From: Baaleninema simplex PCC 7105
GTDB lineage: Bacteria > Cyanobacteriota > Cyanobacteriia > Cyanobacteriales > Geitlerinemataceae
Direction of reading: 5' to 3'
Assembly (NCBI RefSeq): GCF_000332355.1
Contig: NZ_KB235959.1
Span: 691,952-726,208, forward strand
DNA: 34,257 bases
The first letter of the stretch is position 1; every line of letters begins with the position of its first letter. The notes under the pieces are model-generated. The model ran no database searches. It worked only from the letters and a program-made list of their open reading frames with translations, and was not told where the DNA came from. This document shows, one piece after another, positions 3,905 through 29,342 of this stretch. Both the position numbers and the translations under genes were made by a program.

Positions 3905-4055
3905 TTTTACAGTGAACAGTCAACAGTGAGAAGTGTTTCAGTCACCAGTCACCAGTCACCAGTCACCAGTGGGAACAGGGAACAGGGAACAGGGAACAGT
4001 TTCTCCCCCTCTCCCCTTCTCCCCCTCTCCCCTTCTCCCCTTCTCCCCCTCTTCG
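3905..4055. repeat. Low-complexity dispersed repeats
   Basis: Tandem CACCAGT (AGTCACC) units, then GGGAACA units, then alternating CTCCCCCT/CTCCCCTT units. The same three modules recur at 29060-29342 and in part at 30000-30058 and 22010-22050. Confidence 0.8.
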
Positions 4056-20478: not shown

Positions 20479-20547
20479 GGAAATAGTCGAATTCGATTCT
20501 GCACTCAAGTTGACATACTCACCGCCCTAGAAGGGCGGTGATTCCTG

Positions 20548-21792
20548 CTAAGCAGTTACTGATTCATCGACACCACTTACTGGCTCGGGCTTCCCTTCGT
20601 CAGCAGAGGTGGGAGTCTCCTCAGTCGTTTGCGGTTTCCCGCCAGTTTCCCAATGCCCTTGGGTACTGTTCGTCCATTCCATCCCTAGAATTTCCATTCC
20701 TCGTTTGAGGATGTTCGACGCGGCGTTAGTGTCGCGGCACAACTCGATTCCACAGCTCGGGCATTTATGAGTTCGGGTGCTAAGCGATTTTTTGGCTCGA
20801 TGTCCACAATTATGGCAATCCTGGCTAGTGAAAGCCGGATTTACCGCTACAACCGCTTTATCCCAAACTCGCCCGTAGTAGTCCAGAAAATCAGTGAACT
20901 GACTCCAGGCTGCATCAGAGATAGACTTCGCTAGGTGGTGGTTTTTTACCAGATTCCGCACCTTTAAGTCCTCATACGCCACGACATCGTTGGATGACAC
21001 TAGCGCCCGAGCTTGCTTGATAGCCCAGTCTTTACGCTGGCGGTGGACGGTTAGGTGCTGCTTGCCTAGCTGTCGACGAGTCTTGTGGTAGTTAGACGAC
21101 TGTTTTTTGCCCTTTTGGTGTTGGCGACTAAGACGGCGTTGTAGCCGCTTTAATCGCAACTCCTCTCTCCTGAGATACTGAGGGTAGACAACGGCATTAT
21201 CGTTCTGGTCTTTGATGAAGAACTTAAGTCCCAAATCGATGCCTACCACGTTCCCCGTGTAGGTTCCAGGTTCTTTTCGCTCGAGAGCGAGGCAAAACTG
21301 TGCGTAATAGCCATCGGCTCGACGAACAACCCGCACTCGATTGATTTTGCTGCGAAGAATGTCTTCTCTAGCTTCACCGTTGCAGTAGAGCGAGAAGGTT
21401 CCAGCTTTAAAGCCATCGGTGAAGGTGAGGGCATATCCATCGTGCGATAGCTTCCATCCACTGGTCTTATATTCGACCGAGCGGCTGTGCTTTTTAAACT
21501 TTGGATAGCCAACGGGTTTAATCCCTTCCCGACAGTTTTGGTAGAAGCGTTTAACCGCTTGCCATGCTCGGTCAGCATGAGCCTGTCGAGCCATGCTGTT
21601 GAGTTGTTTGGCAAAAGGAAACTCGATCGCCAAACTCTTACACAAAGCCTGCATTTTGGCTCTCGTGCAGTCACGGGTATCCATCCACAGTCGCAAGCAC
21701 TTATTTCTGATGAACTGTCCGGTACGGATCGCTTCATCAAGTGCTTGATACTGCTTTGGCAAACCTTTGAGTTTGGCTTCTCGAACTAACAT
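20548..21792 (-). CDS. tnpB: TnpB RNA-guided nuclease of IS605 type
   Basis: A 414-aa protein from ATG 21792 (MLVREAKLKGLPKQYQALDE), matching the start of the related gene at 34080; the frame opens 13 codons earlier. An N-terminal helix-turn-helix region (IRTGQFIRNKCLRLWMD) leads to the RuvC-like nuclease with all three acidic residues (Asp in GIDLGLKFFIKD, Glu in VAYEDLKVRNL, Asp in CRDTNAASNIL). The zinc ribbon CHNCGH...CPSCGIELC is complete. TnpB is guided by an RNA made from the element's right end and cuts the empty donor site, favouring element retention. The guide would be copied from sequence at and beyond 20510. A polar C-terminal tail (TTEETPTSADEGKPEPV) is added. Confidence 0.92.
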   Translation of the reverse strand: MLVREAKLKGLPKQYQALDEAIRTGQFIRNKCLRLWMDTRDCTRAKMQALCKSLAIEFPFAKQLNSMARQAHADRAWQAVKRFYQNCREGIKPVGYPKFKKHSRSVEYKTSGWKLSHDGYALTFTDGFKAGTFSLYCNGEAREDILRSKINRVRVVRRADGYYAQFCLALERKEPGTYTGNVVGIDLGLKFFIKDQNDNAVVYPQYLRREELRLKRLQRRLSRQHQKGKKQSSNYHKTRRQLGKQHLTVHRQRKDWAIKQARALVSSNDVVAYEDLKVRNLVKNHHLAKSISDAAWSQFTDFLDYYGRVWDKAVVAVNPAFTSQDCHNCGHRAKKSLSTRTHKCPSCGIELCRDTNAASNILKRGMEILGMEWTNSTQGHWETGGKPQTTEETPTSADEGKPEPVSGVDESVTA

Positions 21793-21861
21793 TGCTGTTG
21801 TTGATTCCCCGATATCCTTCCATCTTGCCACAAGAATTGTCGGGTAAAGTCGTCCTAGAAG

Positions 21862-24659: not shown

Positions 24660-25913
24660 TTATTGGTATTTTTTAAACACGAGCGTTACGTTATGACCGC
24701 CGAAGCCGAAAGAGTTCGACAAGGCCACGTTTACCGTATGCGATCGACTTTGCTTGGGTACGTAATCGAGGTCGCAATCGGGGTCGGGATTTTCGAGGTT
24801 GATCGTCGGCGGGACGCGATCGCGAGCCACGCTCAACACGGACAGGACGGCTTCGATGCCACCGGCTCCACCTAACAAATGCCCCGTCATCGACTTGCTC
24901 GAACTGATAACGATGTTTCTCGCGCAGTCTTCCCCGAGAGCGGTTTTCAGTGCGGCGGTTTCAGTGCGGTCGTTGGCCGCAGTACTCGTTCCGTGAGCGT
25001 TGACGTAACTCACGTCGGCGGGAACGAGGCCGGCATCTTTCAAAGCTAATTGAATCGCGCGGGCTGCGCCAGCACCGCCGGGAACCGGAGAGGTCATGTG
25101 ATAGGCATCGCAAGTCATGCCGTACCCGATGATTTCCCCGTAAATTTTTGCCCCTCGACTCAAAGCGAACTCGAGTTCTTCGAGCAAGAGAACGCCCGCT
25201 CCTTCGCCCATCACGAATCCGTCGCGTTCCGCATCGAAGGGACGGCTGGCGCGGCTGGGTTCGTCGTTGCGCGTCGAGAGGGCTTTAGCCGAGGCAAATC
25301 CAGCGACAGCCAGGGGCGTAACGGCGGCTTCAGTTCCGCCGCACAACATGGCTTGGGCGTACCCTTGCTGGATCAGGCGAAAGGCATCCCCGACGGCGTT
25401 CGATCCGGCGGCACAGGCGGTCACGGGGCAGGAATTCGGCCCTTTAGCGCCTGTATGAATGGCAGTCAGTCCGGCGGCCATGTTGGCGATCATCATGGGT
25501 ACGGTGAAGGGGCTGACGCGAGACGGACCGCGAGCGAGGTAGGTTTCCTGTTGGTCTTCCATCACTTTCAGCCCGCCGACTCCCGTTCCGATGATGACGC
25601 CGATTTGTTCGGCGTTTAAGTCGTCGATGGTGAAGTTTGCGTCGGCAAGTGCTTGTTGACTGGCTGACACCGCAAACTGAGCGAAACGAGCCATGCGTTT
25701 CGCCTCTTTACGATCGATATAGTCGTGGGGATCGTACCCTTTGACTTCTCCGGCGATGCGACAGGCGTGTTTTGACGGGTCGAAATGGGTAATCTGCCCG
25801 ATACCGCTACGCCCATCGATCGCCGCCTGCCAAAAGTCTTCGGCAGTGTTGCCAATCGGCGTAATAGCACCGAGACCTGTTACCACAACACGTTTCGGTT
25901 TGAAGTTGGTCAT
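24660..25913 (-). CDS. fabF: 3-oxoacyl-ACP synthase II
   Basis: A 417-aa beta-ketoacyl-ACP synthase II that elongates acyl-ACP by decarboxylative condensation with malonyl-ACP. The thiolase fold begins KRVVVTGLGAITPIGN. The catalytic triad is complete: Cys in VTACAAGSNAVGDAF, His in YVNAHGTSTAANDRTE and His in KSMTGHLLGGAGGIEA. The C-terminal NSFGFGGHN is typical. It stands downstream of acpP, its carrier-protein substrate, on the same strand, but an IS605-like gene-less element now separates the two. Confidence 0.97.
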   Translation of the reverse strand: MTNFKPKRVVVTGLGAITPIGNTAEDFWQAAIDGRSGIGQITHFDPSKHACRIAGEVKGYDPHDYIDRKEAKRMARFAQFAVSASQQALADANFTIDDLNAEQIGVIIGTGVGGLKVMEDQQETYLARGPSRVSPFTVPMMIANMAAGLTAIHTGAKGPNSCPVTACAAGSNAVGDAFRLIQQGYAQAMLCGGTEAAVTPLAVAGFASAKALSTRNDEPSRASRPFDAERDGFVMGEGAGVLLLEELEFALSRGAKIYGEIIGYGMTCDAYHMTSPVPGGAGAARAIQLALKDAGLVPADVSYVNAHGTSTAANDRTETAALKTALGEDCARNIVISSSKSMTGHLLGGAGGIEAVLSVLSVARDRVPPTINLENPDPDCDLDYVPKQSRSHTVNVALSNSFGFGGHNVTLVFKKYQ

Positions 25914-25951
25914 GATGTCAGTCAGTGTCGAGGGATTTTACAGAAAAGGGA

Positions 25952-26363
25952 GCAAAGCCCACGTTTTTTAAGCGTGGGACGAACGCGTTGAAGCTTTTAA
26001 GCTTCGAGGCTACAATTCTATTTGAGGCATAGGTAGCTAAATAGGTAGCTAACCTCACAAAAAACCTGGCACCGAAGGGTGAGAACTGATGATTACCGAA
26101 GTTTTTCGGTTCCACGCGGAAAACAGCTCGTGTGGGTAAAAGCTTCAAGCGTCAAACACGGAGATTCAGAATTTTTGACTCCACTGTACGGTCGGGCAGA
26201 CCGGAACAGGTATCCCCCCTTAGCCCCCCTTACCAAGGGGAGTTGGGGGGATGCGAAACGCGCCGGCGCGATATCGACCTCTGAGCATTTGGCTTCCGAG
26301 CCAAGTGCGTAAGTCGGATGGTTGAGCTAAGAATCCCACGAATTCTATTCGTGGGAGTGTCAA
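25952..26363 (+). mobile_element. Gene-less IS605-like element (PATE/MITE type)
   Basis: At the left is GCAAAGCCCACG with a CCCACG/CGTGGG hairpin (25958-25978), laid out like the left end AAAGCCCCGTCC of the tnpB element at the window's right edge. At the right is a hairpin CCCACGAAT-TCT-ATTCGTGGG (26335-26355) followed by AGTGTCAA, matching the pattern hairpin-AGTATGTCAA of element A. The interior has no tnpB frame and contains the 41-nt repeat. It is probably an internally deleted derivative. It occupies the acpP-fabF gap. Confidence 0.6.
26212..26252. repeat. 41-nt palindromic repeat, copy 2
   Basis: The same ATCCCCCC...GGGGGGAT layout and length as at 867-907. It lies inside the gene-less IS605-like element, so one repeat has inserted in another. 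Confidence 0.7.
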
Positions 26364-26484
26364 ACCCAACAAATGCCTTGTACCGTAAAGAAAAAATAGA
26401 GGAGCGATCGAGAACTGAGATTCGTGGGGGAAGCGAATCCCTGGAACTCAGCTCTAGCGATCGCGGATCGATAACTTGTCGTGT

Positions 26485-26742
26485 TTAAGCTTTCGCGACG
26501 GGGGATTTTTCGCAAAGATAATCGACGGCTGCTTGGATCGTCACCATCTTTTCAGCGTCTTCGTCGGGGATTTCGATATCGAATTCTTCTTCTAACGCCA
26601 TGACCAATTCGACAACGTCGAGAGAATCGGCTCCCAAATCGTTCGCGAAGTGGGATTCGGGTTTAATGGTGTCGGGATCGTCGATTTCGAGTTGCTCGGC
26701 GACAATGCTTTTAACTTTTTCAAAAACTGTTTCTTGACTCAT
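26485..26742 (-). CDS. acpP: Acyl carrier protein
   Basis: An 85-aa acidic protein that carries fatty-acyl intermediates on phosphopantetheine. The attachment serine is Ser40 in [20 protein letters not shown], the family hallmark. It begins [18 protein letters not shown] and ends with a short KSPVAKA tail. It is the first gene of the acpP-fabF unit on the minus strand, so its promoter lies in 26743-26951. Confidence 0.98.
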
Positions 26743-29057: not shown

Positions 29058-29074
29058 AATTGATAATTGAGAGG

Positions 29075-29342
29075 GAACAGGGAACGGGGAACAGGGAACG
29101 GGGAACAGTCACCAGTGAAGACAGGGAACGGGGAACAGGGAACGGGGAACAGTCACCAGTGAAGACAGGGAACGGGGAATCGGGAATCGGGAACGGGGAA
29201 TCGGGAACGGGGAATCGGGAACGGGGAACTTTTACAGTTAGCAGTGAACAGTGAAGACAGTTAACAAGTAACAGTTTCTTCCTTAGTCTCCCCTTCTCCC
29301 CCTCTCCCCCTCTCCCCTTCTCCCCCTCTCCCCATCTCCCCC
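29075..29342. repeat. GGGAACGGGGAACA / CACCAGT / CTCCCC repeat block
   Basis: Imperfect tandem units of GGGAACRGG with interspersed AGTCACCAGTGAAGACA, then GGGAATC variants, and after 29285 alternating CTCCCCTT/CTCCCCCT. The last array runs into the 3' end of moaC and encodes its tail. Confidence 0.85.

Follow-up and report, generated by a model that had tools for sequence, protein, structure and literature searches.

What occupies the gap between acpP and fabF in Baaleninema simplex PCC 7105? In this genome of 6.15 Mb (G000), the two genes lie 571 bp apart, compared with 55–365 bp in 27 relatives (no acpP came from G022, and G013 has, at another and more distant FabF locus, a gap of 61 bp). 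The original prediction, made on the window (the whole stretch of 34,257 nt analysed here), was that a gene-less IS605-like element had separated a normally tight gene pair, that its ends matched those of the TnpB elements in the window, that its tnpB had been lost and that an RNA could arise from its right end. Our results bear out the gene-less element and the separated pair, and revise the account of its ends, its interior and its RNA.

Boundaries, ends and copies of the element

The right terminus of the element is GGGAGTGTCAA, with GTGTCAA as the final letters, and its left edge, originally placed at 25952, is found 10 nt further out (Table 1). One CCCACG/CGTGGG hairpin is located at each end, the insertion lies 3' of a short TTAC-like target and no target duplication is present, all of which are features of the IS200/IS605 type. 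The element is also multi-copy, gene-less and provided with ends common to gene-bearing elements, as are MITEs and PATEs. The ORFs of at least 70 aa overlapping it are only 76–77 aa long, and no gene was recognised there (these ORFs are outside the Pfam scan). The insertion is precise, as shown by the exact empty site of G002, the genome with the nearest FabF (86%) among the 28 relatives searched: its acpP–fabF gap matches the joined flanks of the element at 73 of 89 positions with no break at the joint, and displays TCAC at the place of TTAC in B. simplex. Inserted 28 bp upstream of fabF, the element interrupts a small GGGTGT...CCC motif in front of this gene (25930–26380, minus strand), a motif also present in the gaps of about five relatives.

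Table 1. Position of the element, its parts and neighbouring features in the window.
Feature	Position	Strand	Basis
fabF	24660..25913	-	Pfam
Target site / predicted TAM, TTAC	25938..25941	+	Directly 5' of the element
Whole gene-less IS200/IS605-type element, 422 nt	25942..26363	+	End comparison and exact empty site in G002
Left-end hairpin 1, CCCACG...CGTGGG	25958..25978	+	Sequence; common to tnpB elements L056/L057
Sigma70-like promoter, TTGAAG-17-TACAAT	25988..26016	+	1 found vs 0.6 expected in shuffles
Left-end hairpin 2, GAAGCTTTTAAGCTTC	25990..26005	+	Sequence
5' RNA domain, pseudoknot then P1/P2 helices	26024..26181	+	Covariation; start deduced from the -10 box
Covariance model R1 match, spanning most of the 5' domain and the start of the 3' domain	26094..26283	+	143.6 bits, E 1.4e-31 (this copy belonged to the R1 training set)
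3' omegaRNA/reRNA-like domain, match to model R2	26182..26363	+	72.9 bits, E 1.8e-17 (this copy not among the R2 training sequences)
41-nt palindromic repeat, replacing a small hairpin of the RNA	26212..26253	+	Genome comparison
Right-end hairpin, CCCACGAAT...ATTCGTGGG	26335..26355	+	Sequence
Predicted guide, 16 nt of host DNA adjoining the right end	26364..26379	+	Analogy with ISDra2 (available part of PMC8612924)
acpP	26485..26742	-	Pfam
omegaRNA-like 3' end of the tnpB element in the window (possible class of partner)	20538..20670	-	R2 67.4 bits, E 5.3e-16; TnpB by Pfam

Further copies of the element exist: its stretch has 47 matches in the genome including itself, seven of them long other copies. 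Six copies of a first kind are 380–422 nt long, with 87–99% identity at aligned sites, and one pair of copies is 99.2% identical, which suggests that the element was recently active. With R1, a covariance model of 164 positions, 17 copies were found in the genome at E ≤ 1.2e-23, that of the window at C5:718045-718234. Nine of these 17 (L158–L166) constitute a second kind: they differ at the left end and terminate on the right in GTATGTCAA. The ends of the window copy closely resemble those of the tnpB-bearing elements L056 and L057 (93–94% over the first 71 nt and 91% over the 35 nt of the right end). The predicted likeness to TnpB elements therefore stands for these two, but not for elements of the window, since both lie outside it; the right end of the only TnpB ORF in the window (20548–21831, from a Pfam scan of 10 ORFs) is of the same general type but differs in sequence. 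In two further copies (L059/L008 and L060/L005), the same interior is joined to the right end of another TnpB group. Regarding the surroundings of the 17 copies, TnpB pieces occur at the far ends of the L155 flank, more than 1 kb off; in six other copies, the TnpB matches are all short (20 to 85 residues) and confined to the stretch of the element.

Several copies lie in or near genes. Those of L002, L007, L158 and L160 are in sense inside apparent genes, as judged by Pfam matches: HsdR is matched on both flanks, Uma2 on the left flank at a score under the cut-off, and a histone-deacetylase-like protein and a glyoxalase on one flank each (right and left, respectively). The copy of L152 is just upstream of metK.

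The 41-nt repeat is indeed inside the element, as originally noted, and it is a secondary guest there: only two of eight first-kind copies (L001, L060) have it, at the same place, while the others have the small hairpin. A second window copy (88%) is at 867–908, and at least 32 other places in the genome carry it (40 of 147 candidates were scored). In L014, L034, L037 and L050, the repeat overlaps the TnpB PF07282 match or is within about 10 nt of it. Another group of repeats in the window, of the GGGAAC(A/G) type (29063–29243), is related to the stretch at 3946–4011.

RNA domains of the interior

The interior appears to be a conserved structured RNA of about 340 nt. When 13 copies were aligned by MAFFT, double changes appeared at 28 of the 51 predicted pairs, and single-sequence folding gave z values of -2.9 and -3.7. 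The model-based alignment comprises 82 matches from 92 loci, with near-duplicates and weak or end-cut loci omitted. In its 72 distinct sequences, 93.7% of the cells of 36 pairs are paired, and double changes amount to 455, compared with 115.6 in shuffles, a count reached in 0 of 500 shuffles, although this alignment is fitted to the model and its rows are related, meaning that the number is not a probability. The covariation score of the 5' pseudoknot is above that of all 500 shuffles (32 rows), but only 74% of its cells pair and two of five measures are not above shuffles.

About 80 nt of the element precede the conserved domain. A -10-like box lies 60–110 nt ahead of the R1 start in 41 of 61 distinct relatives, compared with 12.3 in shuffles (63 of the 82 aligned matches were used, 61 of them distinct), and no terminator-like site was detected in 25850–26500. 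The predicted RNA is antisense to the acpP–fabF operon and directed towards acpP. The suggestion of an RNA from the right end is therefore only partly retained: a guide-RNA-like transcript is possible, but its predicted start is near the left end, with a promoter-like sequence of its own.

In the sequences scanned, Rfam has no family for the 5' domain or the element. At gathering scores, the only match in the window is one tRNA, and in 25800–26500 the matches are sub-threshold and chance-like. In 20 further sources, Rfam retrieved tRNA, CRISPR repeats, NsiR4 and two weak unrelated matches; the CRISPR repeat matches of L123 and L183 are at most 2.3 kb from the RNA element.

Regarding the 3' domain, a second model, R2, built from 14 gene-less copies only, was run against 40 sources. 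It finds sequence that follows tnpB on its own strand in 13 of the 30 TnpB loci of this genome at E ≤ 3e-17 (L033, L034, L035, L037 and L042–L050; in L049 there is a match behind a second tnpB piece) and also in L065, from another genome. Lower scores were obtained in L056, L057 and L063 (E 1e-11 to 3e-10) and in L021–L023, L038 and L039 (E 0.0009–0.015), the match in L025 is a fragment, and the other 11 of the 30 loci gave no R2 match. The low scores of the L056/L057 RNAs, compared with the higher ones of others, were obtained although the window copy has the ends of L056/L057. A strong match at L034:2041-2201 (E 1.1e-18) has no PF07282 match directly in front, and weak ones occur in L050 and in the Y1 loci L052 and L053.

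A profile of gene-less B-type 3' halves (12 sequences, two of them from one record) matches downstream of tnpB in all seven loci L021–L027 (E 6e-19 to 3e-9) and only weakly in the first TnpB subfamily (L046, 1.6e-5; L034, 1.6e-4; L050, 7e-4; L035, up to 0.02). The TnpB of L027 is 75% identical to that of L021 and 29% to that of L047, and those of L033 and L047 share 55%. Therefore, two scaffold types mirror two TnpB subfamilies and have one 5' domain in common. A third scaffold type, ending in ATGTCAC (L193, L200, L211, L213, L232, L241), carries the same 5' RNA motif; the best match of these six loci to TnpB-linked RNAs reaches only E 1.6e-6.

At the level of sequence comparison, the 3' domain is thus shown to be homologous to the TnpB omegaRNA found at the 3' end and right end of tnpB elements, and it ends exactly at the right end of the element. 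The interior is not what remains after the loss of a tnpB, as the original prediction had it, but a conserved RNA module found only in tnpB-less elements.

Distribution, predicted guides and potential partners

A 26-nt pattern of the 5' domain, searched in 84,980 species genomes, retrieved 62 stretches, all cyanobacterial by title, from genera including Microcystis, Crocosphaera, Planktothrix, Nostoc, Scytonema, Anabaena and Lyngbya; viral contigs gave 0 matches to the 5' motif. R1 matches 52 of 61 of these database loci at E ≤ 1e-9 (L221, end-cut, was left out) and R2 51 of 62. The 11 without an R2 match comprise six of the third scaffold, one variant, three truncated and one cut by the end of the stretch. 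In 58 of 60 copies compared, the right end is RTGTCAA. Among the 388 genomes of the class, R1 has a match at E ≤ 0.001 in 78 and at 1.0e-8 or better in 25 (own genome included), under stricter filters with which weak matches may be lost. R1 matches between E 1e-8 and 1e-3 were rejected as stand-alone copies, several weak ones of this genome being at tnpB 3' ends.

The RNA is rarely accompanied by tnpB. One of the 62 database loci has TnpB within 1.5 kb: L229, whose element stands between two tnpB pieces. Flanks of 1.5 kb on either side are available for 34 of the 62, L229 included, and the other 33 of these are TnpB-free; the remaining 28 have shorter flanks. Similarly, 27 of the 29 best loci of other genomes (L122–L150) have no TnpB in the flank examined, some flanks being short; L147 is tnpB-linked, and L150 is a complete element with a tnpB ORF downstream. 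The interior as well as the ends retrieved tnpB-less relatives in other genomes, within the flank examined. No neighbouring protein family was found in three or more genera except for frames of the element itself.

The 16 guides compared in this genome are all different, and no exact TTAC+12-nt guide site exists in the genome, one site having a single mismatch. The target in front of these 16 copies is TTAC in 15 and TTAT in one, and TTAT in the 17th (L152), counts that are not independent of the search, in which the left-end strings began with TTAC or TTAT. Potential partners are encoded in the genome, with 117 TnpB-type PF07282 matches and, for the Y1 transposase (PF01797), four matches over the cut-off and one below it; in none of these five Y1 loci were ends matching the element found. 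The median number of TnpB matches per genome is 29 with the RNA (n=22, best R1 E of 5.8e-9 or better) and 7.5 without it (n=20, the first 20 of 310 listed; p 0.008, ignoring kinship and genome size). This co-occurrence is weak because all 42 compared genomes have at least one TnpB-type match. Two RNA-bearing genomes (G070, G434) have only weak TnpB matches.

Competing readings and comparison with known systems

Our comparisons establish the DNA ends, the TTAC target, the precise insertion, the conserved covarying RNA, the promoter-like sequence at a conserved place and the lack of a gene. We consider it probable that this is a non-autonomous IS200/IS605-type element whose sole cargo is a guide RNA, served by a TnpB encoded elsewhere. 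For ISDra2, the available part of one study describes a reRNA of about 150 nt from the right end, the last ~16 nt of which come from flanking DNA, and puts forward cutting of the donor joint by TnpB followed by repair that restores the element (PMC8612924); in an excerpt of another, TnpB can trim the 5' side of longer RNA substrates (PMC10278001). By analogy, an RNA would be made from the left-end promoter, and a TnpB from elsewhere in the genome would trim and bind its 3' part, presumably loading in trans, with about 16 nt of flanking DNA as the guide. A Y1 transposase, also in trans, would peel the element out as a single strand, the TnpB would cut the re-joined TTAC-guide site at the excision point, and repair from another chromosome copy would restore the element. 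Cyanobacteria are often polyploid. The 5' domain accompanies different TnpB scaffolds; its probable role is to stabilise the free-standing RNA, to help it mature or to permit loading in trans. The element has the DNA and RNA parts for such ISDra2-like retention, not the proteins.

A different view of the same data would be that of a passive MITE, with ends mobilised by a transposase in trans and an interior that is a relic without RNA function. TnpA transposition should require the ends alone, whereas the 5' domain is kept across many genera, compensatory changes run all through the interior and the promoter-like box is at a conserved distance. We therefore regard this view as unlikely, even though some copies are truncated and, according to the available text (PMC3542288), MITEs with no known function abound in cyanobacteria. 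Scaffold homology without tnpB, together with a promoter-like sequence of its own, would also suit a decoy or regulator of TnpB, or a guide for a nuclease-dead TnpB controlling host genes. The guides, all different and set by the insertion, fit self-retention instead, and there is no fixed neighbour, leaving this idea quite improbable.

Slightly less probable still is an IStron-like element, the 5' domain of which would be a ribozyme that excises the element from host transcripts. In IStrons, an intron domain on the 5' side is coupled to IS605 or IS607 elements, with copies lacking full-length ORFs (available part of PMC4227781), and the four insertions of this genome apparently inside genes are all in sense. 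Nevertheless, no group I or other intron match was obtained at E ≤ 0.5 in 20 sources or at E ≤ 5 in the window element, the conserved domain starts well inside the element, the Uma2 gene would remain out of frame, the copy of L229 is antisense in a tnpB and that of the window antisense to its operon. Across 74 loci, the open frames of 70 codons or more found at the right end are in sense in 16 cases and antisense in nine. This bias was rejected as a sign of splicing, as the excess is small and genes merely starting downstream count as sense. Finally, despite its position close to fabF, a regulatory region of acpP–fabF is barely credible: the sequence was not seen in the gap of the relatives examined, which have shorter gaps and, elsewhere, only partial, end or core matches, and many copies are found elsewhere in the genome. 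The precise empty site in G002 rules out an ancestral regulatory feature of these genes.

Beyond the guide-carrying element itself, a broader reading is held more tentatively, at somewhat less than even chances: an RNA-only, long-lived mobile lineage of cyanobacteria, in which one 5' domain was joined to the scaffolds and ends of TnpB subfamilies only ~30% identical, with gene-less elements drawing on any TnpB/TnpA of the host and the 5' domain acting as a new RNA module that frees the guide from the tnpB mRNA. If true, guide RNAs can themselves be mobile elements, travelling without tnpB in many cyanobacterial genera, and would provide a natural guide that acts in trans and has a promoter and 5' domain of its own. 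TnpB is the ancestor of Cas12, and such elements would bear on the origin of separately encoded guides. They might also account for some of the cyanobacterial MITEs that are unclassified. In Anabaena sp. 90, 147 type II MITEs without evident similarity to its IS repeats are described in the accessible part of the study (PMC3542288), and some of them may be such elements.

Two features appear to be new, the conserved 5' domain and the gene-less lineage with its wide occurrence, and no description of such an RNA was found in the literature searched by titles and opening lines of abstracts. IS605 elements without genes and omegaRNAs that stand alone are already known: gene-less elements were reportedly described by Meers et al. 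in 2023, and Altae-Tran et al. in 2021 are said to have reported the IscB guide RNA (HEARO RNA) encoded without its protein. The latter situation resembles ours in a guide RNA separated from its protein, but no HEARO Rfam match was found in the sequences scanned and the scaffold of the element is of TnpB type. Like PATEs and MITEs, the element is non-autonomous, with hairpin ends and no target duplication; unlike them, its interior is a structured RNA kept across genera, not a recent local deletion product. IStrons likewise combine a 5' RNA domain with a 3' end of IS605 type and have known copies that lack full-length ORFs (PMC4227781, in part), whereas a group I intron has no Rfam match here and the sense excess is small. 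The reRNAs of IS607 TnpBs derived from RAGATH-18 are likewise conserved structured RNAs, proved to be TnpB guides (available part of PMC11061315), but they have tnpB upstream and the gene-less copies do not; RAGATH gave no Rfam match in the sequences scanned. The target TTAC is that of IS608 (PMC8612924, in part). The closest likeness in the RNA itself is to the reRNA/omegaRNA of the ISDra2 type, in that the 3' scaffold is homologous to RNAs behind tnpB and ends at the right end, with flanking DNA as the would-be guide. Published TnpB guide RNAs derive, in the parts of the studies available, from the 3' end of tnpB itself (PMC8612924, PMC10278001). The present element, in contrast, has no tnpB, has an additional conserved 5' domain of about 150 nt and carries its own promoter-like sequence instead of relying on a tnpB mRNA.
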